A stretch of 34,691 nucleotides of DNA, taken from the IMG/VR virus record IMGVR_UViG_3300025789_000012, positions 1 through 34,691 of that record. One strand, written 5' to 3'. Position 1 is the first letter of the stretch; each line of letters opens with the position of its first letter. This DNA comes from a virus. This document shows, in pieces, positions 2,539-34,691 of the stretch. Both the position numbers and the translations under genes were made by a program. The notes below the pieces were generated by a model. The model saw only the letters and a list, made by a program, of their open reading frames with translations. It was not told the DNA's origin and did not search any database.

Positions 2539-2693
2539 TTTTTGGCCGTTTTTGCGGATTGTTTAAATGCGGCGGCGGTTGGTGCGCCCTTGGTGCCGGG
2601 CTTTCTCATCTTTTCAACCGGCTCACCCGCGGCCTTTTCCCGCTTGATCCGTTCCTGTTTGGCATGAATATTAGCGTATAAACCGGCTTTCAT
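2535..2693 (-). CDS. Small basic protein, 52 aa, unknown function
   Basis: I place the start at the ATG at 2693, which overlaps the stop of the GroES-like gene (ATGA) and has GGAGGA about seven bases upstream. A start further upstream would run into that gene. The protein begins MKAGLYANIHAKQERI and contains MRKPGTKGAPTAAAFKQSA. I recognise this as a recurrent phage small protein usually found beside DUF6321-like and 48-aa genes. It is Lys-rich with a conserved Pro-Gly turn. The function is unknown. Confidence 0.82.
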   Translation of the reverse strand: MKAGLYANIHAKQERIKREKAAGEPVEKMRKPGTKGAPTAAAFKQSAKTAKK

Positions 2694-2965
2694 TCCATTT
2701 CCTCCACAAAACACACATCTTTCCAAGACATCACAATTAAATTTTCATCTTTTAATTCTTGATATTTTAGATATTCGTCTTTGTAATCCTTGGCCAATGT
2801 GCCGAAATAAATCTTATCCCCAACACTTAGCCCCTGATCCTTGGCATCATCGCCCAATGCGGTGATATGCCCCACCGTGGGTGCCTCCGCCGTCTGTATC
2901 CACAAATCGCTTTGGATTCGTTGAATAGGCTTTACAAATATCTTATCACGCAATGGCTTAATCAT
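2690..2965 (-). CDS. GroES-like co-chaperonin (Cpn10 fold)
   Basis: The 91-aa protein begins MIKPLRDKIFVKPI, the typical Cpn10 opening (PL.D...V.P), followed by VGHITALGDDAKDQGLSVGD and KIYFG, matching the conserved Cpn10 turn (G..G......V..GD.V.F). A DEYLKYQELKDENLIVM segment near the end corresponds to the terminal strand. I chose the ATG at 2965 because it starts right at the family N-terminus and overlaps the upstream stop by eight bases. Phage Cpn10 proteins such as T4 gp31 replace or modulate GroES to fold the capsid protein. No GroEL partner is encoded here, so it would work with host GroEL. Confidence 0.85.
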   Translation of the reverse strand: MIKPLRDKIFVKPIQRIQSDLWIQTAEAPTVGHITALGDDAKDQGLSVGDKIYFGTLAKDYKDEYLKYQELKDENLIVMSWKDVCFVEEME

Positions 2966-3182
2966 TTTTCCGTGGCCTCCCGCGCTTGGGGCTTGAAAAA
3001 ACGCCCAAGGCGCTAGCCTCGGGCAAACTCTCGGCAACTGCATTACCCACCGAGATTTCTTTCCTTGCAAATTCGCCACACCATTCGTTTTGGGAACGGG
3101 TTTTGTAATCGGGATACCGGCGGCATGATCCTAAATCGTGCCCTATGTAAAACCGGCATACCTTACAATTGTCATCAGCCAT
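2958..3182 (-). CDS. Small Cys-rich (putative zinc-binding) protein
   Basis: This is a 74-aa protein with four cysteines, at positions 6 and 9 (CKVC), 20 (GSCRRYP) and 35 (NEWCGEF). The spacing suits a small zinc site. The C-terminal tail is basic (SPKRGRPRKND), resembling an AT-hook-like GRPRK motif that could touch DNA. It is downstream of a stem-loop region at 3199-3248. The function is unknown; zinc and DNA binding are inferred only from the residues. Confidence 0.75.
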   Translation of the reverse strand: MADDNCKVCRFYIGHDLGSCRRYPDYKTRSQNEWCGEFARKEISVGNAVAESLPEASALGVFSSPKRGRPRKND

Positions 3183-3251: not shown

Positions 3252-3590
3252 TTACATTGAATCTTGGACGTGATCCATACGCTTGTGCTCATAACAAGTA
3301 GATTCCGATGATCCACCTTTCATTTCGCCCAAGCGGCCATCGTGCATTCCCATGTGCTTGGAATCACGGCTACCAATTCCATCCATCTTGCCCATGCCCA
3401 CACCGCCCTCGATCGGGCGCTTGCGCTCTCCGGATGTGTCACTTGACAATGCGCCGCGGGGGATTTTTTCCCCTGATGCGCCGGGCACAAATCTTTCTTT
3501 ATCCTCTTTTGGCACGCGCACATTCTTTTCGCCGGTGCGATCAGATGATTTTGCGCCCATTGGCAAATTTTCCATTTTGGGGTATCCCAT
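3252..3590 (-). CDS. First gene of the packaging block; 112-aa hydrophilic protein with YEHKR tail
   Basis: The start is the ATG at 3590 with AAAGGA upstream. The protein is Gly-, Lys- and Met-rich and apparently low in regular structure: MGYPKMENLPMGAKSSDRTG, repeated SSD.(T)SGE-like units (SSDRTGEKN, SSDTSGERK) and MGKMDGIGSRDSKHMGMHDG. It ends CYEHKRMDHVQDSM. A YEHKR motif also ends the 74-aa protein next to the portal (32719-32943). I remember similar proteins in environmental podovirus genomes but know no function. It is the first gene after the candidate promoter at 3636-3666. Confidence 0.78.
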   Translation of the reverse strand: MGYPKMENLPMGAKSSDRTGEKNVRVPKEDKERFVPGASGEKIPRGALSSDTSGERKRPIEGGVGMGKMDGIGSRDSKHMGMHDGRLGEMKGGSSESTCYEHKRMDHVQDSM

Positions 3591-9047: not shown

Positions 9048-9110
9048 AAACGCGGCTAGGGTAGCTCCCGAAAAGACGATTCGTTACCGTCCTGCCGATG
9101 TTTTCTTTTT
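9048..9110 (+). ncRNA. Structured leader RNA candidate (c4-like, attenuator or put-like)
   Basis: Starting from the extended -10 at 9036, the predicted transcript begins with a foldable element. CGGC (9053-9056) pairs with GCCG (9094-9097) and AGG (9058-9060) with CCT (9091-9093). Inside are GGG/CCC (9059-9061 with 9067-9069) and GACG/CGTC (9075-9078 with 9088-9091); some pairs are alternatives. A T-rich tract follows at 9101-9110. It could be a terminator/attenuator, an antitermination put-like leader, or a relative of phage c4 antisense RNA, which also occupies a 5' leader. The family assignment is a guess. Confidence 0.45.
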
Positions 9111-9137
9111 AACGCAAACCGAAAAACGTAAGGTTAT

Positions 9138-9848: not shown

Positions 9849-10017
9849 TCCGGTTGAACATTACGCGCGTTTAGCACTTAAGCCCGGTTGGATTGATTAC
9901 GTTAGGCAACGCGTGAAAGAGTTGGAAAACGATCCAACCGGAATGTTTAAGGGATTGGGAATAGCAATTAAACAAAGAATGGATGAATTAAATGTTTCAT
10001 GTGACATTTCGGGTTGA
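9841..10017 (+). CDS. Small hypothetical protein, 58 aa
   Basis: This short frame starts with the ATG at 9841 inside the end of the DUF1376 gene and ends 26 bases inside the RusA gene. It encodes MLDPVEHYARLALKPGWIDY followed by VRQRVKELENDPTGMFKGLG and IAIKQRMDEL. The even amphipathic character and the conserved-looking KPGWIDYVR.RVKELE..P.G pattern suggest a real small protein of the replication block. The function is unknown. Confidence 0.72.
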   Translation: MLDPVEHYARLALKPGWIDYVRQRVKELENDPTGMFKGLGIAIKQRMDELNVSCDISG

Positions 10018-10411
10018 TGGCCAACCGCACGGAAAGGGCCGCCCACGCTTTACACGCCAAGGCGGATTTGTTAGGGCATACACCGATGCTAAAACGCTAT
10101 CCTATGAAAGCATAATTCGATTGGCGGCACAAAAATCAATGGGCGCATCAATGCCGCTTACAACGGCGTTAGACGCGTTTGTTTACATATCCTTGGCCAT
10201 CCCATCAAGCTATTCTAAAAAACGCAAGGAATCGTGTTTAAACGGCTTGGAAAAGCCAATTAAAAAGCCGGATATCGATAACGTGGCCAAAAGCGCGTTA
10301 GATGCTTGCAATGGTGTGATTTTTGTATCTGATAGCCAAATCGTTAATTTGTTTGTGGCTAAGCGATATGGCGATCCGCACATAGAGGTGTTGATAAGGG
10401 AGACGGAATGA
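9992..10411 (+). CDS. rusA: RusA-family Holliday junction resolvase
   Basis: This is an endonuclease that cuts four-way junctions arising in replication and recombination. The 139-aa length is close to RusA. It has the conserved GKGRPRFTR near the N-terminus (residues 14-22) and the core KKPDIDNVAKSALDACNGVI with D94, D96 and K100, spaced like E. coli D70, D72 and K76. D114 follows in FVSDSQI. All catalytic positions are therefore present. The stop overlaps the next ATG (ATGA). It probably resolves junctions produced by the ERF/exonuclease system encoded on the other strand. Confidence 0.93.
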   Translation: MFHVTFRVDGQPHGKGRPRFTRQGGFVRAYTDAKTLSYESIIRLAAQKSMGASMPLTTALDAFVYISLAIPSSYSKKRKESCLNGLEKPIKKPDIDNVAKSALDACNGVIFVSDSQIVNLFVAKRYGDPHIEVLIRETE

Positions 10412-14315: not shown

Positions 14316-14863
14316 GTCTTTTGAATAAATGCTAATGCGTAATAAAGTGGATTGTTGGTGCCGCTAGATGTAACAACACCGCTAGATGCAAATCCGCCAT
14401 TGTTTCCAACCGAATAGCTATTGCCCGCGCCAACGATAAATCGATCCCTTAAATCGGGCGTGCCATTTGATCCATTGCAAAGCACATAGCCGGTTGGGAT
14501 TCCGCCGATTGATCCTGACCACATGATGATCCCACCGGCGGGCACCGCGCTAACGGCGGGGCTTGTGCCAATGATTCCATATAAGTTATCCAAGGTTTGA
14601 ATAACATTGTTGCTTGCATCGGTTAACACAAATTTATATGAATATCCGCTTGTTAGCCAAATTTCATTGGCGGGGCGGCCATCCGTGCCTAACACGATTG
14701 GGTTGGTATTGGCGGTGTTTCCGGTGTTGTCCGTGTAAGTGTTTAGCGGTGTGCTTGTGCCCGCTTGGTAGGTGTAGATATATCCACCGGCCAAAGGCAC
14801 ATTAGGAATGGTGCTTGATAGAAATTGAAATCCGTTTCCTACGGGTGAAAGATTAACGCTCAT
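14312..14863 (-). CDS. Tail collar-domain protein, 183 aa
   Basis: The N-terminal part (SPVGNGFQFLSSTIPNVPLA, GGYIYTYQAGTSTPLNTYTD, then NPIVLGTDGRPANEIWLTSG) resembles the head-binding region of podovirus tailspikes and collar-type fibres. The C-terminal half carries the phage tail-collar signature: AGGIIMWSGSIGGIPTGYVL, CNGSNGTPDLRDRFIVGAGN. The ATG at 14863 follows AAGGG and overlaps the upstream stop. It is probably a short fibre or adsorption protein. Confidence 0.82.
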   Translation of the reverse strand: MSVNLSPVGNGFQFLSSTIPNVPLAGGYIYTYQAGTSTPLNTYTDNTGNTANTNPIVLGTDGRPANEIWLTSGYSYKFVLTDASNNVIQTLDNLYGIIGTSPAVSAVPAGGIIMWSGSIGGIPTGYVLCNGSNGTPDLRDRFIVGAGNSYSVGNNGGFASSGVVTSSGTNNPLYYALAFIQKT

Positions 14864-17259
14864 GGTTGGCCCTTAATGTTAATTGTCCCAATCGGCGTGA
14901 TACCCGCCGTTGGTGAAATGCGTCTTTGCAATTCAAGTGCTTTTTGTGCTTTTTCCGCCTCCAACAACGCCTTTTCTTGGCGTGCTTTAAACATCGGTTT
15001 CAATACTTGGCCAACAACACCGCTTGCGCCGCCGGTCTTGACATTCAATGCCGCCTCGCCAATCCCAATCGCAACATCACGCGCCGCACGTTTAGCCGCC
15101 TCTGTTTCCGTCAAAATGCCCGATTGTGAAACGTTTGCCGATCCACCGGCACGATTTCTAACGTGTTCGCTTAGCCGCGCCACATCACCGATGTTACGCA
15201 ATCTATTCGCCACCTCCGGCCCCGCAATCAAATCCAAATTAGGCCCAAGTTTATTCAATTCTTTGTTTAATGCCGCTTGGCTAACATTGCCTTTGTCATC
15301 AATAACACCGGCTTTTTGTTTTAGATGATCGGCTAATCCGGCAATGATTTCGTGATGTGCCGGTGTATTGCGGCCAACCAAATCGATTGCACGGCTTAAA
15401 TCCGCGGGTGTTGTTTTGTTACCCGCGATAAAGTTTTCAAAAAATCCCTTGGATGCCGGATGCGCCACGTTTCCGGTTTCTATTTCCAACGGCGTGCGAT
15501 TATCCTCATACGCCATCGAATACAATTTATTATATGTTGGCTTTTTCGTGTCTAACAATTCCTTTTGCCGCCTAAATAAACCCCGTGCCGTATCCGCCGC
15601 ATCTTTGAATTCAATTGCGGTTTCATCCGTTAGCGGCAATTCTTCTAACGCATCTTTTATGTGGCCAATAGCATTTCTGATATTTCCATTACTTTCCCCG
15701 CGTATTGCCGTTGCCAATTGCGTGCGTAAATGTTCAAATTTATTTAGGTTTAAATCTTTTTCACCGCTTGCATAATCATCAAGTCTTTTTTTCCAAGTAT
15801 CGGGTAAAAAATCAATATCATCCTTTTCATTTAATTTTTCAAGTGCATTTTGTGCAACTTTTTTAGCATCTAACGGAAATTTACCATTGTTTAATTGTTC
15901 TAAGTTTGTATAAGCATTCTTGATGTTTTGATTGTCAACCTCAACATTATTCTTTTTAACGTGTTCTAAAATATTGTTGGCTTTGCCTTGTTGGCCAACG
16001 CCGGAATGTTCCGCCGCAAATTCATCTTTGATATTGTTGAATCCTTTGATCAACATCGGATCGCGTTCTTCAAATTTAGCCCTTAACGCTTCATTGCCCT
16101 CGTGCGATTTCTGATTGTATTCATCCGATAGCTTGGCCACATCTTGTGTTGCTTGCCCCTCGGTTGGGATAAATTCCGGATCAACTTTTGCAAATTTATT
16201 GTGGATTTCAATAGCTTGCAAATCTTTGGGCGTGATTGTGTTGATTGGGCGATTGGCCAATTCCGCTTGCATATCCGGCCTTGCCTCTGAAATAGCTTGT
16301 CTAACCGCTTGTTCATGTTGCACCGCGGCCGCACCGCCACTTTGTAATCCGCTTAATGGCGTTACTTGTGCTTGCGGTTGTTTTGCTTGGAATTGTTGGG
16401 CCATTTGTGATTTAACATCACCCAATTCCGATCCAACGGCTTTTAATCCTTTTGCGCCTAATGTAATTCCTTTGGGGGCCAACATTGCCGCACTTTGCAT
16501 CATGTGGCGCACATCCTCAACCGGCAAACCCGTGGCTTGGCTAAGTTTTTCCGCACCCAAATTAATATTTTCGCCAATGTATTTCATCGCCTGTTGCGAT
16601 GCCTCACCCTTATACCCCGGTGATTCAATAACATTGGTGCCGGTTAAATATCCGGCGGTTTTACCAAATGGCTTTTCTAATGCGCTTGTCACCGTTTGCC
16701 CTATTTCCTCCGCCCTTTGTGGCGTGGTAAATGGGCGCGATAAGCCTTGTGCAACATATCCCGCCATTGGCAACACGCCACCAACCGTTATATCGGCCAA
16801 TGATGCTAATCCTTGCCCCGTGCGTTTAGCCGCATCAATTAAATCTTGTGGATTCAATTGTTGTTGTTGGGCAATAGCTTGTTTGCTACGAATTTGCGGT
16901 GTTTTAATATATGGCTTGGTTAGATCAACTTGGGCTTGTTGTTCTATCGGCACGCCCATAGCCTGTTTAACACTTGTGGGCGCTTTAATGCTTGCAACAT
17001 CGGGATCAAAATCTAATGGATCAACATTTGAATTTGGATTGATTTGAATCGTTTTGCCATCGGGGCGATGCAATCCGTGTTCCGCAAGCAATTGATCGCT
17101 TGCTTTGTTTACATCGGTTAATTCTTTGCCGGTTAATTCACGGTGCCTTTGTTTTAAAACATCTAGGCGTTGTTGCAATTCCGGATTTGTGCCGGTTTTA
17201 GGTTTGAATTTTTCAAAGAATGCAACATCTGGGTCTTGATCTAATACGGTTGTTGTCAT
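14860..17259 (-). CDS. Large internal virion / DNA-ejection protein candidate, 799 aa
   Basis: No enzyme motif is visible. The protein is long, mostly helical and Ala/Gln/Asn-rich. After a charged start (MTTTVLDQDPDVAFFEKFKP) comes a hydrophobic Gly-rich region at about 150-265 (LASLADITVGGVLPMAGYVA; MMQSAAMLAPKGITLGAKGL) that could insert into membranes. Long helical charged regions follow to about residue 700, then an Ala-rich end. As the last of three large genes after gp10-like, it occupies the place of P22 ejection proteins (gp7, gp20, gp16). The ATG overlaps the upstream stop. Confidence 0.7.
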   Translation of the reverse strand: MTTTVLDQDPDVAFFEKFKPKTGTNPELQQRLDVLKQRHRELTGKELTDVNKASDQLLAEHGLHRPDGKTIQINPNSNVDPLDFDPDVASIKAPTSVKQAMGVPIEQQAQVDLTKPYIKTPQIRSKQAIAQQQQLNPQDLIDAAKRTGQGLASLADITVGGVLPMAGYVAQGLSRPFTTPQRAEEIGQTVTSALEKPFGKTAGYLTGTNVIESPGYKGEASQQAMKYIGENINLGAEKLSQATGLPVEDVRHMMQSAAMLAPKGITLGAKGLKAVGSELGDVKSQMAQQFQAKQPQAQVTPLSGLQSGGAAAVQHEQAVRQAISEARPDMQAELANRPINTITPKDLQAIEIHNKFAKVDPEFIPTEGQATQDVAKLSDEYNQKSHEGNEALRAKFEERDPMLIKGFNNIKDEFAAEHSGVGQQGKANNILEHVKKNNVEVDNQNIKNAYTNLEQLNNGKFPLDAKKVAQNALEKLNEKDDIDFLPDTWKKRLDDYASGEKDLNLNKFEHLRTQLATAIRGESNGNIRNAIGHIKDALEELPLTDETAIEFKDAADTARGLFRRQKELLDTKKPTYNKLYSMAYEDNRTPLEIETGNVAHPASKGFFENFIAGNKTTPADLSRAIDLVGRNTPAHHEIIAGLADHLKQKAGVIDDKGNVSQAALNKELNKLGPNLDLIAGPEVANRLRNIGDVARLSEHVRNRAGGSANVSQSGILTETEAAKRAARDVAIGIGEAALNVKTGGASGVVGQVLKPMFKARQEKALLEAEKAQKALELQRRISPTAGITPIGTINIKGQP

Positions 17260-18857
17260 TGAAATTCACCCCTTTCAATGCGTTTCATCATCTTTTGTTT
17301 GCGTTGCAATTCCTTAGCCTCATCCGGCGTTAAATCACCAAATAGCTTTGCCCTTTCAAATTCTTTTTGCATTGGCGAAAGATTAGATTTATTAATGTTT
17401 TGCAACATAAAGTTTCTAATATCGTAATTAGCGTTGAATTCGGCACGATAATTTTGTTCGTGTATTGGGCCGTTGTATGGGCCATGCTTGGCCATAAACG
17501 CCTTTAAACCCGCCGTGTAGGCGTGTGCCGCGGTGTTTGTTGCATAGGCACGATCCGCAATGCTTTTCAATGCCTTTGGATCAATATCGGGTGATCCGCT
17601 TATGTTATTTACGGTTTCGCGTGCCGCGTTGGTTGGTGCGCCAAATATTGATTCATTATTCAATTGTTGCATAGCCAAGTTTTTAGCTAATTCATTTAGG
17701 CTAGGATTTCCAACAAGTGATGTTTGCAAATTACGCACCACTTGGCCCAATTGGCTACCTGTGGCGGCACCAAGGTTTTCGTAAATCTTGCGAATGTTTT
17801 GATCGCTTTCGCTTGCCACTTTATCGGCCGCAATAGACGCATCTTTTCTAGCCATTCCCGCCTCATATCGCGCTTGTTGTTGCGTGTTTAATTGCGGTAT
17901 CGGGCCGGGGGCAACCGGCATATCCAACGATATTTTAGGAATATCGGCCGATGGTTTTGTTGCCCCTACATTTGGCATACCGGCGGGGATTCCCGCGGGC
18001 GGTGCGCCGGTTGCGGGCGGCAAATTAAAGTTATCCGGCAATGGCCCATTTGGTTTGGTTTGGGCGTTTGCTTGCGTGTTTGCTTGGGCATTTGCTTGGG
18101 CTTGCCCCATTGTCACCGGCGTTAAAACGCCACCGGGGCCAACCTGATAAGTTATATTATTAATGGTTTGGAATGTGCCCGGTGCGGGATTGATATTTAA
18201 TGATTGCGGTTGGCGATTAGGTTGAAACAAAGATTGTGGCATCAATGTTGTTTGTGATCCTTGGCCGATTGCGGTAGGTGCCAAATTAGCTTGTGCAAAT
18301 TGTTGCGTGTTTTGGCCACGTTGCACAATATTCGTTAATGCTTGCCCCAATGCTTGCGGCTTTTCATCAATTAAAGTATAGATTGGCCGTAAATGCGCCT
18401 CAACCGATGCCTTATCAATCCCACGGCCAACCAATCTTTCTTGTGCCGCAATCACCGCATCTTTAGCGGCTTTAACCGATTTAGGGTCTTTTGGATTGAT
18501 GTTTTGAATATCTTTGTTGGGGATCAAGGCACCCAATTCGTCATTCATGTGTTCGGCTTGGGTGCCGGTTAAATCATATTGTGCCTTGCGTGCCTCAATT
18601 TCGGCTTTCCGCGCCGCTTGTTCCGCAACGGTAATATTGGGTTGTTCTTTCCCGCGTTGTTCCCTAGATAGCGATTTGCTTCTTTCAATCTCTGATTCTT
18701 GCGTTGCTTGTTGTCTTTCTAATTCCAAGCGTGCTTTTTCCAATTGCAACGGCATCAATTGTTGCGATTGTTGATATTGTTGTAAGGTGTTTAAATTCCC
18801 CAACATATCGCTTAATGTTGTTGGCTTGCTAACGGCATAATCGGTAAATACGGGCAT
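17256..18857 (-). CDS. Putative ejection/internal virion protein, 533 aa
   Basis: The Gln- and Ala-rich helical start (MLGNLNTLQQYQQSQQLMPL, then EKARLELERQQATQESEIER) is followed by a low-complexity middle. That middle has QAQANAQANTQANAQ repeats at about residues 250-268 and a Pro/Gly-rich stretch at about 270-320. The C-terminal half is helical (QLGQVVRNLQTSLVGNPSLN; SPMQKEFERAKLFGDLTPDE). An AAGGA site precedes the ATG at 18857. It lies between two other large helical proteins in the P22 ejection-protein position. Function is inferred from context. Confidence 0.68.
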   Translation of the reverse strand: MPVFTDYAVSKPTTLSDMLGNLNTLQQYQQSQQLMPLQLEKARLELERQQATQESEIERSKSLSREQRGKEQPNITVAEQAARKAEIEARKAQYDLTGTQAEHMNDELGALIPNKDIQNINPKDPKSVKAAKDAVIAAQERLVGRGIDKASVEAHLRPIYTLIDEKPQALGQALTNIVQRGQNTQQFAQANLAPTAIGQGSQTTLMPQSLFQPNRQPQSLNINPAPGTFQTINNITYQVGPGGVLTPVTMGQAQANAQANTQANAQTKPNGPLPDNFNLPPATGAPPAGIPAGMPNVGATKPSADIPKISLDMPVAPGPIPQLNTQQQARYEAGMARKDASIAADKVASESDQNIRKIYENLGAATGSQLGQVVRNLQTSLVGNPSLNELAKNLAMQQLNNESIFGAPTNAARETVNNISGSPDIDPKALKSIADRAYATNTAAHAYTAGLKAFMAKHGPYNGPIHEQNYRAEFNANYDIRNFMLQNINKSNLSPMQKEFERAKLFGDLTPDEAKELQRKQKMMKRIERGEFQ

Positions 18858-18867
18858 GATTTATTCC

Positions 18868-21054
18868 TTATGCGGCTGTAAGTTTCAATGTGGTTGTTGC
18901 CGGTGTTGGCGCAAATGCGGTTACCGCGGCATTCGTCAAATTGCTTAACAAATTGGTTTGGTTTTGTGCGTTGGCAACTTGTTGGCCCGCCGCACTTGCC
19001 GCCAATCCCGTGGTGACATTTCCATACGTTTGCGCCAATCCACCGCCTAGGCTACTTAATTGTGCGTTAGCGTTTTGGCCTAATCCGGCTTGGCCCGCCA
19101 ATGTGTTATAGATATTGTTGCGTTGGGTTTGGTAATTAGTAAACGCATTTTGATACGCGCCTTGTGCGTAATTCTGTGCGTATGTGTTAAGCCCTTGTAA
19201 AGTATTTCCGCTTAATAACCCACCGCCAACATTGGCCGCGTTTTGCGATTGGCCCAATCCTTGTTGTAATTGGAATTGATAATTCGGTGCTAATTGTGCG
19301 GTTAAATCTTGGTTGTTAAATTGGTTGGTTAGATAGCCCGATCCGGTGCCCGTGCCCGTGACACCGCCCGTGGGTGACATAACGTTATAGGTGCCCGATC
19401 CAAGCGATCCTAACGTGTTTAAAGCATTCACACCCGCCTGTTGATAGGGCGATTGCAATTGGCCTTGTTGGGTATATAGCCCTTGAATCAAATTTTGTGC
19501 GTTTTGGCCTGCGGCGGCTTGTGTGGCGGCCGCACTATTGTTTGCGTTTGTTAATGTATTTGAATTAACTAGGCTAACACCGGCGGCGGCCAAAGCGGCA
19601 ATTTGTGCGGCGGTTAAACCCGTTGCGGCGGCGGCCGCGGCGGGTGCAACACTTGATGCGGCGGGCGCGGCGGCGGGTGCGGCGGCGGCGGCGGCCGCGG
19701 GCACAATCGATGTTGATGGTGTTAAATTGGTTGTTGTATTAACCGGCGTGCCACTTGGCAAACCCGTGGAATTAACAATTGGGCTTGTGGCATTCGGTGT
19801 TATTGGTGCGGTTGATGTCACCGATGTTGATGTGGGCGAAACACCAACCATATTTGTAAATGGCACGGGCGTTGGGGTTGTTGGCACGGATGCCGTGCCG
19901 GTGCCCAACGATGAAAGATTTGTTAAATCGCCCGGTTGGGGCGTGTTGATAAAGTTTGGATTTAAAACCGATCCCGGCAATTGTTGGGCGTTTGCCAAAT
20001 TGCCTAATGATGCACCGCCCGTTGGTGTTGTTGGTGTTGTATTAGTTGGCGTTGTTGGTGCAACATTTGATAACGTTGTTCCATCACTTGGTGTGCTTGG
20101 CACATCGGTTGATGATGTAGGATTATCCGCGGGCGCATTGGGATTGATTCCCAAGCCACTTTTAACGGATTGCACCAAAGGCGAATCGGGATTAAATCCC
20201 GCGTAAGACACGGCCGCACTAATCAATGCCGCACCATATTGGCCTTTGCTTGCCGCATCGGCGGCGTTATAAGCGGCGATATAGGGCACTAAAGCGGGGA
20301 ATGCAATCGCTAAAGCGGGCACCGCGGCCGATGTTAATGCGCCCGTGCCACCGGCAAATCCGCCAGCACCCGCATTCAAGCCAACGTTTTGCACATTGGC
20401 GGCGGTAACCGGCGCAATCGTGCCACTTTGATCGGTTTGTGCGGTGACTTGAATCATCCCATTCCCGCTAGGAATGTTGATTCCGGTGCCGTTTGGCCCT
20501 ACTTGCACTTGATAATTTCCGGCGATTGGTGCGCCCGTTGTCTTGTTGATTAAGTTATATGTGCCGGTATCCGCGTTGTAATTAACCGCCGCATTTCCGC
20601 TTATCAATGCTTGTGATAATTCCGGATTGGCTTGTTGCGCCGCACTAATCATATTGCCCGATGCTTGGCCATAGCTTGTGCCAACCGCGCCCGGTGCGGC
20701 CGATCCCACAAATTGCGGTGCGGCCATGCTAGAAAGTGATGTGCCCAAATCGGTTGGCGTGGCCCCCGATCCTGTTGTTGATGGCGTGCTTTGTGATGCG
20801 CCGGTTGTAATTCGTCTTGTGGGTGCCGGTTGCGCCACCGCTTGCACCTGTTGGGGTGTGATATTCATCCCCGTTGCGGTGCTAACAATGCTTGCAATTT
20901 GCGCGGGGTCTGTAATTCCAATCGATGCGGCCGCTTGCAAAATAGCCTGTTGGCCTTGGGGCGTGCCGATATTAGCGTTAATAAAATCGCTTGTGCCCGC
21001 CGGTAATCCGGCCATAGCATCTTGCACGGCGTTATTTATTGCGGTTGTTGTCAT
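18868..21054 (-). CDS. Putative DNA transfer/ejection protein with low-complexity centre, 728 aa
   Basis: An N-terminal helical part (AVQDAMAGLPAGTSDFINAN; AASIGITDPAQIASIVSTAT) is followed by Thr/Pro/Ser-rich linkers at about 290-440. A poly-Ala/Pro segment (nt about 19600-19700) comes next. The C-terminal region is rich in Gln, Asn and Gly with repeats of YQ..., including NYQFQLQQGLGQSQNAANVG and TNYQTQRNNIYNTLAGQAGL. That C-terminal style recurs in proteins I remember as podovirus DNA-transfer proteins. GGGGGAA precedes the ATG. The long alanine tracts explain the long opposite-strand shadow frames. Confidence 0.7.
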   Translation of the reverse strand: MTTTAINNAVQDAMAGLPAGTSDFINANIGTPQGQQAILQAAASIGITDPAQIASIVSTATGMNITPQQVQAVAQPAPTRRITTGASQSTPSTTGSGATPTDLGTSLSSMAAPQFVGSAAPGAVGTSYGQASGNMISAAQQANPELSQALISGNAAVNYNADTGTYNLINKTTGAPIAGNYQVQVGPNGTGINIPSGNGMIQVTAQTDQSGTIAPVTAANVQNVGLNAGAGGFAGGTGALTSAAVPALAIAFPALVPYIAAYNAADAASKGQYGAALISAAVSYAGFNPDSPLVQSVKSGLGINPNAPADNPTSSTDVPSTPSDGTTLSNVAPTTPTNTTPTTPTGGASLGNLANAQQLPGSVLNPNFINTPQPGDLTNLSSLGTGTASVPTTPTPVPFTNMVGVSPTSTSVTSTAPITPNATSPIVNSTGLPSGTPVNTTTNLTPSTSIVPAAAAAAAPAAAPAASSVAPAAAAAATGLTAAQIAALAAAGVSLVNSNTLTNANNSAAATQAAAGQNAQNLIQGLYTQQGQLQSPYQQAGVNALNTLGSLGSGTYNVMSPTGGVTGTGTGSGYLTNQFNNQDLTAQLAPNYQFQLQQGLGQSQNAANVGGGLLSGNTLQGLNTYAQNYAQGAYQNAFTNYQTQRNNIYNTLAGQAGLGQNANAQLSSLGGGLAQTYGNVTTGLAASAAGQQVANAQNQTNLLSNLTNAAVTAFAPTPATTTLKLTAA

Positions 21055-30494: not shown

Positions 30495-31739
30495 TTAAGC
30501 CGCAACACGGCAAGCCAATTCGGGATACAACGGTGCCCATCCATATAAGACATCCAAACGGGTTGGAATCGAATCATTGTTGATGGTGTACTGACGTACC
30601 ACACGCATGGAAAGGCCGATTTCTTTATCGCTTGCACGGCCCGCGAAGTGCACCCCCTCGGGTAGCTCGAGATCCGCCACGGCCAAGCAGAAAGCGTTAC
30701 GGTGCATGATTATGTTTTGGGGTGAAACGGTGCCACTATTGTTAAATGGTGTCACGGTGCTTGCGCCCGCACTTGTCACGCTAACGTTTTGGAATTGACC
30801 GGCGGTGATAACGGCGGGGCTAACGGTGACGCTAGTGGTGCCGCTTGTGGCAACCGTGGCGGCCGCGGTGACAACAAAGTTTCTTAGCTTGTTGCTACCA
30901 TAGGCTTGGCGGTTTTGTGGGTTAACGGCGTAGACGTTTGCAATCTGAATCACATCACCAACATTCAATTGACCGGCGGCCGTAGTGGCGCTTAGTGCGA
31001 TTGTTGATGTCTGTGCCCATCCTGATGTCAAAAATCCCGTTGCGGTGCTTGTATTGCACGATAAAACGGCCGTAGGGCTATTGCCAAAGGTTTGGCTAAC
31101 CACGTTCTGGTCCATTTTCCAATTCATCCCCGCGCTGTCCCTGCCCATCAACCCCTTCCTGTATTGCTCACCGATAGCCTCTTGTGGAACAAACAAGCCT
31201 TTTAGTGAATCAACAATGGTTGCCGATGTAAATGGCTCCACAATACAAGACCGGCGGCCATCACGGGGTGCGCCCTCCGCATCCAAATAAGCCGCGGCGG
31301 TTAGATATGTGATCAAACCTGTGGGCGGTGTTCCGGCCGTGCCAACAATATTTGCGGTATTGTTTTTAGCCATCACCAATCCATCACGGTCTATCTTATT
31401 GGCTATGGCGGCCACAGCGGGTTTCAAAACTCGGTCGCTGAACATGTCGAGGCTTAGCGCTAAGTCTTGGGTCGTGAACTGCGTGTCCACATGGAACTGG
31501 GTGCTTAGTGTCACGGGCACGCTAGTTTCGTTGAAATCCTCAACGTTTAGCGCGGGGCCTGTGGTACCAATGAAGCGTCCGGGACGTCTAACATTAACCG
31601 TGTTACCGATTTTTGCACCGACCACTGCGAACTGATCATCGTAATTGCGGTCCACCTCGCTCGTAAACGTCAATTCGTTTTCGAGCACCATAAGAGCTTC
31701 ATTTGTGATTTTTGATATCGTCAATAAATTGTTTGACAT
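30495..31739 (-). CDS. Major capsid protein, P22 coat family
   Basis: The 414-aa protein fits the HK97-fold P22 gp5 family (430 aa in P22). Recognisable parts are the N-arm MSNNLLTISKITNEALMVLE, the GNTVNVRRPGRF region, VPVTLSTQFHVDTQFTTQDL with ALSLDMFSDRVLKPA, a central segment CIVEPFTSATIVDSLKGLFV, and the C-terminal HRNAFCLAVADLELPEG with RVVRQYTINNDSIPTRLDVL. A Thr/Ala-rich middle (about 225-320) corresponds to the variable insertion domain. AAGGAA precedes the ATG. It follows scaffold, as in P22. Confidence 0.93.
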   Translation of the reverse strand: MSNNLLTISKITNEALMVLENELTFTSEVDRNYDDQFAVVGAKIGNTVNVRRPGRFIGTTGPALNVEDFNETSVPVTLSTQFHVDTQFTTQDLALSLDMFSDRVLKPAVAAIANKIDRDGLVMAKNNTANIVGTAGTPPTGLITYLTAAAYLDAEGAPRDGRRSCIVEPFTSATIVDSLKGLFVPQEAIGEQYRKGLMGRDSAGMNWKMDQNVVSQTFGNSPTAVLSCNTSTATGFLTSGWAQTSTIALSATTAAGQLNVGDVIQIANVYAVNPQNRQAYGSNKLRNFVVTAAATVATSGTTSVTVSPAVITAGQFQNVSVTSAGASTVTPFNNSGTVSPQNIIMHRNAFCLAVADLELPEGVHFAGRASDKEIGLSMRVVRQYTINNDSIPTRLDVLYGWAPLYPELACRVAA

Positions 31740-31757: not shown

Positions 31758-32642
31758 TTACCTGATTTTTCCCGCCCGCCGCGCCTCTTTCCACGCCTGA
31801 TATGTGCCGTGAAATTCACCACTTGAATTAATGGGAATATCCGCAACACCACCGCTAGGCTTTAAGGCACGCACCGGTGCGGGTGCTTTACTTGTCTTGA
31901 CCGTAGTCTCCTTAGCCGGTTCCGCCTTTTCGTATAGCTTTTCCAATTTTCCCAATTCAAGAAGGGCTTTGCGTGTGGGCATGGCCGCCAACTTTTGTGC
32001 GTATTCCAAATCCTCCGCCAAGTGATATAGGATTCTTGGGCCTACATCCGATTCCAATATGGAATCACGGATTTCATCGGAAACAACAACATTAGCCGTT
32101 GAAACCATTTCATCGTAATCGGGCAATTCGGCTTTCACTTGATCTAATTTGGATGACCAAGATTGGATAACCTTTTGTCTTTCCTCATTAGCCTTGCGAT
32201 TCGCCTCCTGTTGATCCCTTTCCGCCAACGCCTTTTCGGTTGAATATTGGGCCAAAGCCTTTGCATATTCAAACGCATCCTGAAATTGCCCCGGTTGCGG
32301 TTCCTGATCAACGCTCGGCCTTTGTGGTGCCGCCACTTGCTCAAGTGCCCTTAACCTATCCTCCAACGCTTGCCTTTGTTGGCGTTCCGCTTCCGCCTCC
32401 GCCTTTGCCGCCTCGCGTTGTTTCGTCAATTCGGAAAATCTTTTCTCTAACTTTGGGTTCGCCCGCTTTTCCTCTACGGGTTTGGCTTCCTCTTGCACCT
32501 CGGGTTCATTCTCAACCACCTCCGTTGATGGCTCGGCATCCACCGCCACATCATCCGTTTGATCGGCTAAACCTAAACGATTTGCATAAAATTCCGCCGC
32601 ATTCTCGCTTGTGAGCACTTGGCCCGCTTCTTTTTCCGACAT
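31758..32642 (-). CDS. Scaffold protein
   Basis: The 294-aa, highly charged helical protein lies between portal and coat. The acidic start (PSTEVVENEPEVQEEAKPVE) is followed by a coiled coil (LEKRFSELTKQREAAKAEAE and on to about residue 105). A mid part has PDYDEMVSTANVVVSDEIRD, SDVGPRILYHLAEDLEYAQK and LAAMPTRKALLELGKLE, then a basic C-terminus (YQAWKEARRAGKIR) that would contact coat subunits. P22 scaffold is 303 aa. These features fit P22-like scaffolds well. Confidence 0.88.
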   Translation of the reverse strand: MSEKEAGQVLTSENAAEFYANRLGLADQTDDVAVDAEPSTEVVENEPEVQEEAKPVEEKRANPKLEKRFSELTKQREAAKAEAEAERQQRQALEDRLRALEQVAAPQRPSVDQEPQPGQFQDAFEYAKALAQYSTEKALAERDQQEANRKANEERQKVIQSWSSKLDQVKAELPDYDEMVSTANVVVSDEIRDSILESDVGPRILYHLAEDLEYAQKLAAMPTRKALLELGKLEKLYEKAEPAKETTVKTSKAPAPVRALKPSGGVADIPINSSGEFHGTYQAWKEARRAGKIR

Positions 32643-32660
32643 AGGTTTCCCTAAGAATTA

Positions 32661-32682
32661 ACCCCGTGCATCCCCACGGGTA
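32661..32682 (-). other. Stem-loop upstream of the scaffold gene
   Basis: On the minus strand CCCGTG, a six-base loop and CACGGG form a six-base-pair hairpin about 20 bases before the scaffold ATG, without a T run. It may be an RNase processing or translation-control element that sets the scaffold level relative to the portal. The rest of the 76-base gap (32643-32718) holds nothing I recognise. Confidence 0.5.
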
Positions 32683-32718
32683 AGGTTTGTGTAATCTTTA
32701 CACGAAATCATTACTTTG

Positions 32719-32943
32719 TCAAACACGCCCATTTCGTTTGTGTTCATAAACCACTTGTTCTTTTGATCCGGTGTTGAAATTTTCTTTATATTGTTTGTTA
32801 TTCAAATCACTAAGGGCGGCCTCAATGGCTTGTTTTCTACCCATTTCGGATTTCATTTTTTCAAATTTTGGATGTGTTTTAGCTTTTTCGTGTTGTTCTT
32901 TGGCATATTTTTTAGCCAATTCTTTTTGTTCATCATTCATCAT
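32719..32943 (-). CDS. Small charged protein with YEHKR tail, 74 aa
   Basis: The ATG at 32943 overlaps the portal stop (TAATG). MMNDEQKELAKKYAKEQHEK is followed by a basic helix (HPKFEKMKSEMGRKQAIEAA) and ends EQVVYEHKRNGRV. The terminal YEHKR matches the end of the 112-aa protein at 3252-3590. Both flank packaging genes, so a common partner such as portal or terminase is possible. The function is unknown. Confidence 0.75.
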   Translation of the reverse strand: MMNDEQKELAKKYAKEQHEKAKTHPKFEKMKSEMGRKQAIEAALSDLNNKQYKENFNTGSKEQVVYEHKRNGRV

Positions 32944-34691
32944 TAGATTGCCCTTTCTATGGCTTCCGCCTTTGCTTCACGTTCACTTATCCGATCCAAA
33001 TGCGCCAAATAAATGGCCAATTGGGCTTTGATATTTTCTACCTCTAATTGCGTCTGTGTCTTAGCCACCGTATCTTGTGCTTGCGTGTGTGTCTTTAAGA
33101 CCATATCCATGTGTCTTTCCTGATCACGCAATTCAATATCATGGGCGCGGTTGGTTTCTTTGATCAATGTGCGCTTGGTTTCCGCATCCTGTTTCATCTG
33201 CTCCACATCCGCACGATTCTTAATCATCAATTGCATTGCTTGTAATTGTTGTTGCAATTGTTGAATAGTTTGTTTGGATTGGGCCAATTGCATTTGCACT
33301 TGTGGCGGCACGGGTGATTTATCATCAATTTGTGCCAATGGGTTGCTTGCGGCCAATCGATCCGCAATTACATCCGCACCGGGGAAATCCATGTTTCTAA
33401 AGATCAAATCACCGGCAACATTCATCAAATTGGGATCGGCACTTAACAAAGGCATCATCGATTCAACCGCCTCAATCCGTTTACTGTTGTAGCCGGGGCC
33501 GGTATCCATCACCACATCGTATTCGCCAACGGTAACATCGTTTAATATCTTTTCAACGCCTTGTTCGTCTTGGCCACGCTTATTGATTTCAACCAAATCC
33601 GGCTTTCCATCATCGCCAATAATCCGCATCACACGCGCGTTATCGTAGATTTTGGGGATTAGATCAAGAATAATTCGGGCCGTGTGCTTAATGGATCGCG
33701 TTAGATTATCGTAATAGTGGTAATTAGATAGATCAATTTGTTGTTGTTGGCCATTTAGGGCCTTGCCGCTAATGTTTCCGGTTGGCATTTGGTTTGGATC
33801 AAAGATGCCCAAAACCGCTTGCATATCGCTATTAATTCCATCCGCGGCGGCCATAATTCCCGCGGGCGGTGCCTCCGGTTGAATCCGTGTTGGCACCGGC
33901 GCGGGCACGCCCTCGATATCCTTTTGCTTGTATCGCAACACCGGCATCGATTTAATGTTTGCCTGTGCCCATTCATTCTCGTGGCCCTCATCCTGTCCCT
34001 CGGCAATTAACCACTTGGCCTTTGGCGCTAGGGCAACGGATTCGGTTAGCGCGGTTTTCCAAAAGTTATACATCCTTTGTGGGTCTTTGGCCATTCGCAC
34101 CAAGCCATATTTTTTGCGCTTGTTTTCAACAATGAATTCCTCACCATACACCGGCACAATTGGAATGTATTTGCTTGCCCATTTGCCCTCCTCTAGCACC
34201 TCCATGCCCGTGCAAATGATCTGTTTCACCTCTTTTTTAAATGATGGCCTTTCATCAACCACCACCAAGCCACGGGCCAACATTTCCGCCTGATCGGGCA
34301 AATCGGATCGGAAAGCCTTTTCGCCATTGCTTAATAGGCATAGCTTATCCGCCTTTCTTTCCGTATACCAATATTCCGCAATCCGGATATCCTCCCGCAT
34401 CACCCATTCCGCATTGCTATCGCCGGTGCCGCGTTGTGTAAATCCCGCGCCATCATCCGCGCCGGGATACATCTTTCGGAATATTTCCTTGCTAACCACT
34501 TGCGTTATTAGGCACTTTTCCGCATCCGATCCATCCGGCAAGATGCTATTTGGATCAAAATACACGGTGAATGGGTTGTGTATCGGCTCAATGTATATTT
34601 CCTGATCAAAGGAATTTTCCCGCACATAATCCGTTTTTAGCCGCCAATAGCCAAAGCCCATCCGCACCGCGTAATTAAACGCGTTGTCATA
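32943..34691 (-). CDS. Portal protein, C-terminal part (start lies at base 478)
   Basis: This is the remainder of the P22-type portal. Codons upstream of 34565 are duplicated by the terminal overlap; the true start is at 478. It carries the family feature IEPIHNPFTVYFDPNS near the junction and a long mid-domain (YNFWKTALTESVALAPKAKW). The C-terminus is a Gln- and charge-rich helical region (QSKQTIQQLQQQLQAMQ, then repeated KTHTQAQDT-like heptads), expected for the barrel or helical crown of P22-like portals. The stop TAA overlaps the ATG of the next gene (TAATG). It is followed by a 74-aa gene, scaffold and coat, the usual head operon order. Confidence 0.92.
   Translation of the reverse strand, partial: YDNAFNYAVRMGFGYWRLKTDYVRENSFDQEIYIEPIHNPFTVYFDPNSILPDGSDAEKCLITQVVSKEIFRKMYPGADDGAGFTQRGTGDSNAEWVMREDIRIAEYWYTERKADKLCLLSNGEKAFRSDLPDQAEMLARGLVVVDERPSFKKEVKQIICTGMEVLEEGKWASKYIPIVPVYGEEFIVENKRKKYGLVRMAKDPQRMYNFWKTALTESVALAPKAKWLIAEGQDEGHENEWAQANIKSMPVLRYKQKDIEGVPAPVPTRIQPEAPPAGIMAAADGINSDMQAVLGIFDPNQMPTGNISGKALNGQQQQIDLSNYHYYDNLTRSIKHTARIILDLIPKIYDNARVMRIIGDDGKPDLVEINKRGQDEQGVEKILNDVTVGEYDVVMDTGPGYNSKRIEAVESMMPLLSADPNLMNVAGDLIFRNMDFPGADVIADRLAASNPLAQIDDKSPVPPQVQMQLAQSKQTIQQLQQQLQAMQLMIKNRADVEQMKQDAETKRTLIKETNRAHDIELRDQERHMDMVLKTHTQAQDTVAKTQTQLEVENIKAQLAIYLAHLDRISEREAKAEAIERAI
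34565..34691. repeat. Right copy of 127-bp terminal direct repeat (assembly overlap)
   Basis: This is the exact duplicate of bases 1-127. It lies inside the portal coding sequence, and removing one copy leaves an uninterrupted 699-codon portal gene. Confidence 0.95.

Follow-up and report, generated by a model that had tools for sequence, protein, structure and literature searches.

Two proteins of one phage, unlike over the rest of their sequences, end in closely similar short tails, and the question raised is what this peptide does there. The window, meaning the whole stretch of DNA analysed here, spans 34,691 nucleotides of an IMG/VR virus record (IMGVR_UViG_3300025789_000012). An initial annotation had pointed to YEHKR tails on a 112-aa and a 74-aa protein, and translation bears this out: the former (P1, 3252-3590, minus strand) ends CYEHKRMDHVQDSM, and the latter (P2, 32719-32943, minus strand) ends VVYEHKRNGRV. 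A literature search for YEHKR returned only work on yeast Hkr1 and no description of the tail.

Genome and head module

The window belongs to a freshwater P22-like podovirus, in which portal, coat, scaffold and Terminase_3 are recognised by Pfam and PHROGs and follow in order, as read in the sister contig L002. The portal matches PF16510 (E 5.6e-144) and the coat protein (30495-31739) PF11651 (E 7.4e-35), in a single ORF. The scaffolding protein (31758-32642) matches phrog_8865 (E 1.4e-31), the terminase large subunit (481-1737) matches PF04466 (E 6.8e-39), and a weak match designates the probable small subunit (1727-2119). All are on the minus strand. No prohead protease family was found among the 27 window proteins, a subset of its ORFs, scanned with PHROGs.

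The portal of a sister phage aligns at 100% to window positions 34691-32946 and 502-2. The portal gene is thus split across both window ends (C-terminal part at 32943-34667, N-terminal part at 2-502, both minus strand), meaning that the window is circularly permuted and that P1 and P2 are separated by ~5 kb around TerS-TerL-portal and not by 29 kb. That the two genes flank the packaging genes, as had been proposed, therefore holds: they lie on either side of TerS-TerL-portal, and the corresponding ORFs of sister contig L002 are at 9971-10336 and 15179-15433. Elsewhere in the window, putative ejection proteins are encoded within 14860-21054, and an int-alpA RNA (RF02996) is detected at 9049-9115 on the plus strand, with 43.8 bits for a gathering threshold of 35.8.

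A tail shared by P1 and P2

Across all six reading frames of the window, YEHKR is encoded at just two places, the tails of P1 and P2. The common segment is longer than first described, reaching ~14 residues of the form NTGxxExxxYEHKR, roughly. Its most constant residues are Y, H and R, and a Cys is often conserved as well. In P1 it reads EMKGGSSESTCYEHKR (3279-3326, minus strand, with YEHKR at 3279-3293); in P2 it reads NTGSKEQVVYEHKR (32734-32775, minus strand, with YEHKR at 32734-32748) and is followed by NGRV. Tails of P1 relatives take the forms NTGSKEHVAYEH(S/K)R or NTGRTEGVCYEHKR. Full-length P2 proteins of the window type are rare, with three distinct ones, all of which keep N-T-G-x-x-E-x-V-x-YEHKR and differ in the tail at positions also variable in P1.

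A profile was built from 54 distinct P1 tails, in which E(-4), Y, H and R are invariant, many of the underlying loci having been recruited by the motif itself. Run against the ORFs of 231 loci, this profile recovers two of the three P2 types with E ~1e-7, and among 57,635 ORFs the same two score 2e-7 to 4e-7; the third type (L089) reaches only 0.05-0.08 on its own. The P1 and P2 tails of the window are encoded by DNA that differs at wobble positions and, across loci, third codon positions vary at the conserved tail residues. The fixed residues in this comparison were imposed by the search expression, and the wobble variation alone is its result: the tail is conserved as protein while synonymous sites are free. 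The idea that P2 recently copied the resident P1 tail, KGGSSESTCYEHKR, was rejected, the P2 tail being closer to the P1 tails of other phages.

A third carrier was found at L071:3051-3389, in a protein unlike the other two that adjoins P1 and holds the tail module GKLGQMNTGRSEKEVYSHVRQPHSQ / GQMNTGRSEKEVYSHVRQPHSQ followed by ~20 further residues. This protein also contains two THID repeats. The profile search of the fetched loci passed no carriers beyond P1, P2 and the L071 protein. A pattern search with NTG..E...Y[ED]H.R returned 82 stretches, and the 48 distinct ORFs bearing this pattern in the scanned loci are all P1-like or P2 except one of 357 aa, which looks like a chance match.

The P1 family

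P1 is a Gly/Met-rich protein predicted to be disordered (AlphaFold2, 29 sequences, mean pLDDT 53.6, pTM 0.12). It is common in this phage group, where it is found beside Cys-rich and Cpn10-like proteins. A search of viral contigs returned 109 relatives, of which 80 were kept, and Y.H.R is present near the end of the P1 ORF in all 80 kept loci. A less biased sample was drawn from loci obtained with the slot tag or the P2 core (see below) that include a Cpn10-like or Cys-rich gene with 1.5 kb or more of sequence upstream. P1 is present in 23 of these 26 loci and keeps Y.H.R in 20 of the 23; the changed tails read YEHKK, YTKTK and YVKEK. By hand count, 11 of the 20 proteins keeping Y.H.R have A, S or G in place of E(-4). 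The motif is hence conserved in homologues of both proteins, P2 included (3/3).

P1 is present in 214 of the 231 fetched loci, most of which had been retrieved through P1 or the tail; the Cys-rich gene is present in 209 and the Cpn10-like gene in 192. In the window the Cys-rich protein, with a weak HiPIP-like match, and the Cpn10-like protein that travel with P1 occupy 2690-3182 (minus strand). The Cpn10 (GroES-like) gene itself, which adjoins P1, is at 2690-3079 on the same strand, its match being weak and under the curated cutoff.

Window P1 has no family in PHROGs or Pfam, nor do 29 P1 members have one in PHROGs or NCBIfam, and sequence matches in the PDB are limited to "Cake" proteins (best E 0.0085). 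Among named phage records, P1 was found in two Manatee Spring records; a match in an Erwinia phage (E 10) was taken as chance. The 67-kb contig IMGVR_UViG_3300025723_000032 (source of L002 and L029) carries two different P1 genes and two packaging modules, and is perhaps two phage genomes assembled together. P1 relatives at L259-L261 are on contigs binned with Methylococcales, Burkholderiales and another beta-proteobacterium; this binning is a host hint only, since one of the contigs (34 kb) is phage-sized.

A hypervariable slot between portal and scaffold

P2 is the occupant of a hypervariable slot extending from the portal stop to the scaffold start (32643-32942, minus strand). AlphaFold2 (3 sequences) predicts three helices in P2 and gives its tail a pLDDT mostly below 50, suggesting that the tail is probably disordered. 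Sister phages have no gene there, or have one that usually belongs to one of ~30 protein groups with a different peptide in common, the "slot tag". Loci fetched for P1 or P2 gave 63 distinct junction strings: 40 are without a gene (gap of at most 100 bp), 17 contain a tagged gene and six a tailed P2, and no slot gene with neither peptide was found in them. Some strings are one contig read from two loci, and a hand count gives 16 distinct tagged proteins and three distinct P2.

The tag has the form [VI]TSxNxxEF...EMxKRG, or more fully MPTVTSxNKxEFDxxEMEKRG with variants, and covers ~15-20 residues. Its position in the protein is free: mostly N-terminal, it is C-terminal in the L282 family (four ORFs) and in L105, and internal in L373. 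As with the tail, its residues are conserved while third codon positions vary. In viral contigs, the tag DNA pattern with correct spacing occurs in 114 stretches, compared with 22 for a mis-spaced control; the loci found with the mis-spaced pattern (L237-L258) were excluded from the ORF sets from the tag profile onward. The tag expression applied at junctions is loose: of 17,149 ORFs with 60-420 aa, 391 fit it within their N-terminal 60 residues. All 16 distinct junction proteins score E 5e-8 or better against the tag profile, although this profile was built from 11 slot peptides, some of them belonging to these 16 proteins, and the proteins that supplied those peptides match by construction.

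Tagged proteins range from 34-66 aa, as in several that contain little besides the tag, to ~400 aa. A crude string comparison of the non-tag parts sorts 85 distinct tagged ORFs into 32 clusters. Most scanned slot proteins have no recognisable domain, and GP88 (PF17338, in L105, E 6.7e-20) is the sole cargo domain above a curated cutoff. Weak ART-like matches are found in L162 and L034 (E 0.006-0.1), a PFIN match below cutoff in L296 (E 5.6e-4) and weak ParB-like PHROG matches in L033 (E 5e-4). Residues 32-126 of the L296 protein, tag excluded, match within a 538-aa Nodularia phage protein encoded five genes upstream of a head maturation protease.

Among 57,635 ORFs, 158 tag hits are found at E <=1e-3, of which 145 adjoin portal and/or scaffold. 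The other 13 come after the small gene o2119, in most cases ahead of TerS or TerL. A 193-aa tagged family resides at this second site, between o2119 and TerS/TerL (L013:2040-2618, L092:10732-11310, L095:2577-3155), and the tag is accordingly not bound to the portal-scaffold slot. No description of the slot tag or of a hypervariable portal-scaffold slot was found in the literature searched.

Resemblance of the slot tag to the scaffold N-terminus

The slot tag resembles the N-terminal motif of the neighbouring scaffold. In the window this motif is VLTSENAAEFYANRLGLA (32565-32618, minus strand), the scaffold start reading MSEKEAGQVLTSENAAEFYANRLGLADQ / VLTSENAAEFYANRLGLAD. A tag-like motif opens 189 of 196 scaffold ORFs; of the remaining seven, two are truncated or incomplete (L324, L372), and the motif is altered in five (L283, L345, L382, L408, L414). 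When a scaffold-motif profile was run against 49,904 ORFs, the best 13 in a row after the cut-off scaffolds were tagged proteins, each match being weak individually (E 0.02-0.24), and the tagged loci had in many cases been collected with a pattern holding part of the motif. Less affected by recruitment is the converse comparison, made in loci not selected by tag: once the tagged proteins are passed, the four top-scoring matches to the tag profile are N-termini of scaffolds (E 0.03-0.74). The same holds for P2-core proteins, recruited by nothing but their core: the tag of one of them, L375, reads IVTSENRAEFMANKLGLEQ and is close to both the window scaffold (VLTSENAAEFYANRLGLAD) and L375's own (VVTSENATTFYAERLGLAE), whose motif is VVTSENATTFYAERLGLAEQ. 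Inspection by eye of the loci listed revealed no visible co-variation between tags and the scaffold motifs of the same phages.

The resemblance extends in part to a cultured phage: the scaffold of Xanthomonas phage PBR31 (L417:3731-4591) begins MSETRTVVTSESLMQQLTG, a partial motif, and no gene is annotated in its slot. In Rhodoferax phage P26218, with a more distant scaffold, the motif is absent.

Two peptides on one core

The core of P2 (residues 15-48, KEQHEKAKTHPKF..LSDLN, 32800-32901, minus strand) is common to slot proteins of sister phages. BLAST of the core THPKFEKMKSEMGRKQAIEAALSDLN gives 45% over 40 aa to the slot protein of L268, and a dedicated core search returned 63 loci. Core-bearing strings number 38 when told apart by their C-terminal 70 residues, and many of them are close relatives. 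By hand tally, 26 have the tag without the tail, including L373, whose tag was seen by eye and missed by the profile. Four have the tail without the tag, these being of the window type and one of them cut off at its start. Five have neither peptide (L259, L363, L365, L368, L369), two are cut off before the tag, and L379 is without a tag and cut off before its end. None of the 38 has both peptides on one protein.

Tag and tail are thus swapped on one core. Neither the canonical tag nor the tail is strictly required, as the five strings with neither indicate. The N-termini of these five (such as NHADYISKELAKK) show a vague resemblance to the tag (E 0.6 for L259) and align with the start of P2, MKKELNHADYISKELAKKYNKEQHEK in L259 being placed opposite MMNDEQKELAKKYAKEQHEK; P2 therefore looks like a form in which the tag region was lost and a tail gained. 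The matches of the P2 core in the PDB, to heme oxygenase 2, are weak (best E 0.077).

Proposed docking and loading, and the alternatives

The tail had initially been read as a docking peptide for a common partner such as portal, scaffold or terminase. Its conservation, together with its replacement by a scaffold-like tag in most P2 relatives, favours this reading in kind, and lends no support to any one of these partners. Our preferred, still tentative account is that the tail is a linear docking peptide and that P2 is a cargo-type slot protein using it as an address. A wider and more speculative model, for uncultured P22-like freshwater phages, would have slot products enter the procapsid by either of two addresses, the scaffold-like peptide or the YEHKR tail, interchangeable on one core, with delivery alongside the DNA as a further possibility.

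On the preferred account, the portal-scaffold space is an exchangeable slot in this P22-like group. The scaffold-like tag would probably let slot proteins join the assembling procapsid through scaffold contacts. As P2 has no tag and bears a P1-type tail at its other end, P1's usual partner would probably recruit it to that assembly, P1 being a putative assembly component. From the head, slot proteins may then pass into the host along with the DNA.

If this is true, a P22-type phage could load changeable proteins by means of a peptide of at most ~20 residues, as T4 does with its CTS. The ~30 mostly unnamed slot protein groups would become candidate injected phage effectors, and the little-understood scaffold N-loop would be made directly testable. 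In addition, either peptide could be used as a minimal handle to load proteins into P22-type particles.

Alternatively, the tail might belong to a P1 function unrelated to the head, such as nucleic acid, metal or chaperonin binding, with P2 having acquired it by fusion and the slot genes being accessory. The position of P1, clustered with the Cys-rich and Cpn10-like genes ahead of the terminase genes and outside the head module, is compatible with such a role, as are the conserved Tyr, His, Arg and frequent Cys of the tail and the lack of P1 matches in the families searched. P2, however, bears the tail in a slot where most of its relatives carry the scaffold-like motif, which ties the tail to the head module, and we consider this alternative rather unlikely.

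An account in which slot proteins are assembly regulators and not cargo is also unlikely, at a level slightly below the preceding one. Such regulators would occupy the scaffold or P1 sites, through their likeness to the scaffold N-terminus or, in P2, through the tail borrowed from P1, and tune portal incorporation, scaffold release or turnover, themselves staying unpackaged. The likeness of the tag to the scaffold N-terminus would suit them, as would the 34-66 aa proteins consisting of little besides the tag, and a P22 study reports that the scaffold N-loop also affects scaffold release (PMC12005531). Yet the non-tag parts are diverse, reach ~400 aa and include GP88 and weak ART- and ParB-like matches, which would be odd for simple regulators, and regulation would have to be optional with the slot empty in 40 of 63 junction strings.

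By a third alternative, tag and tail would not dock at all and would be by-products of cassette exchange, providing ends for homologous recombination or translation starts, in line with the free swapping of genes in the slot and the position of the tag mostly at gene starts. The variation of third codon positions at the conserved residues of both peptides, and the occurrence of the tag at C-terminal and internal positions and at a second genomic site, largely refute this reading, which we hold to be highly improbable. Chance or convergent likeness of two short tails is very unlikely given the tail-profile scores: although the motif is short, its surroundings in P1 are of low complexity and the L089 form alone reaches only E 0.05-0.08, the match covers 14 residues, attains E ~1e-7 for two of three P2 types and joins families constrained at the same positions.

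Comparison with known systems

P22 gp8 is the scaffold of a phage with the same head type, and its N-loop is the scaffold end corresponding to the motif described here. P22 itself is not known to have a TSEN motif or a tagged slot gene. When the N-loop (residues 1-57) is removed from P22 scaffold, the resulting particles contain much less of the ejection protein gp16 and retain scaffold (PMC12005531).

The CTS of phage T4, in the portion of the account consulted, is a short terminal peptide found on fast-changing proteins, an N-terminal propeptide removed by gp21, and is proposed to direct a variety of proteins into the head (PMC9026906). Both systems place a short terminal peptide on unlike proteins, the tag here being distributed over 32 clusters and the tail over P1, P2 and the L071 protein. 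In contrast to the CTS, the tag can be N-terminal, C-terminal or mid-protein and resembles the scaffold N-terminus, and the tail lies near the C-terminus; that same portion does not describe the CTS as a scaffold match (PMC9026906). Tag and tail hence resemble the T4 CTS by analogy of working, packaging being a prediction here, and they are not assigned to the T4 CTS type.

MuF proteins are encoded downstream of the portal and combine a conserved part with variable parts, some of them ADP-ribosyltransferases, and their delivery with the DNA has been hypothesised, as stated in an excerpt of the source (PMC5576092). The slot gene, directly downstream of the portal, shares this location with MuF (SPP1 gp7-like) genes. 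However, MuF is a domain with its own profile, whereas slot proteins have only a 15-20-residue tag or tail, and no Pfam match to a MuF domain (PF04233 / PF06152) was found at E <=1 in P2 and 20 slot proteins. Polyvalent proteins, as presented in part of the article describing them, are multidomain, include ART- and ParB-type domains and are thought to travel with the phage DNA (PMC5512222). The slot proteins recall them through ART- and ParB-type matches that are weak or below curated thresholds, and differ from these multidomain proteins in being small.

Inserts in coat genes of relatives

The coat gene of some relatives is interrupted. In 23 of 170 fetched coat loci (L162, L016, L029, L133, L166, L015 and others) it matches in 2-5 pieces. 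In most of these loci the breaks are inserts of ~210-250 bp at recurring sites near residues 27, 51, 90, 106, 204, 356 and 382. A comparison with Rfam returned no intron match. Many of the inserts are related across sites (~75-86% identity), have strong predicted folds and end near GTAACAGAATG; they look like very small group I introns.
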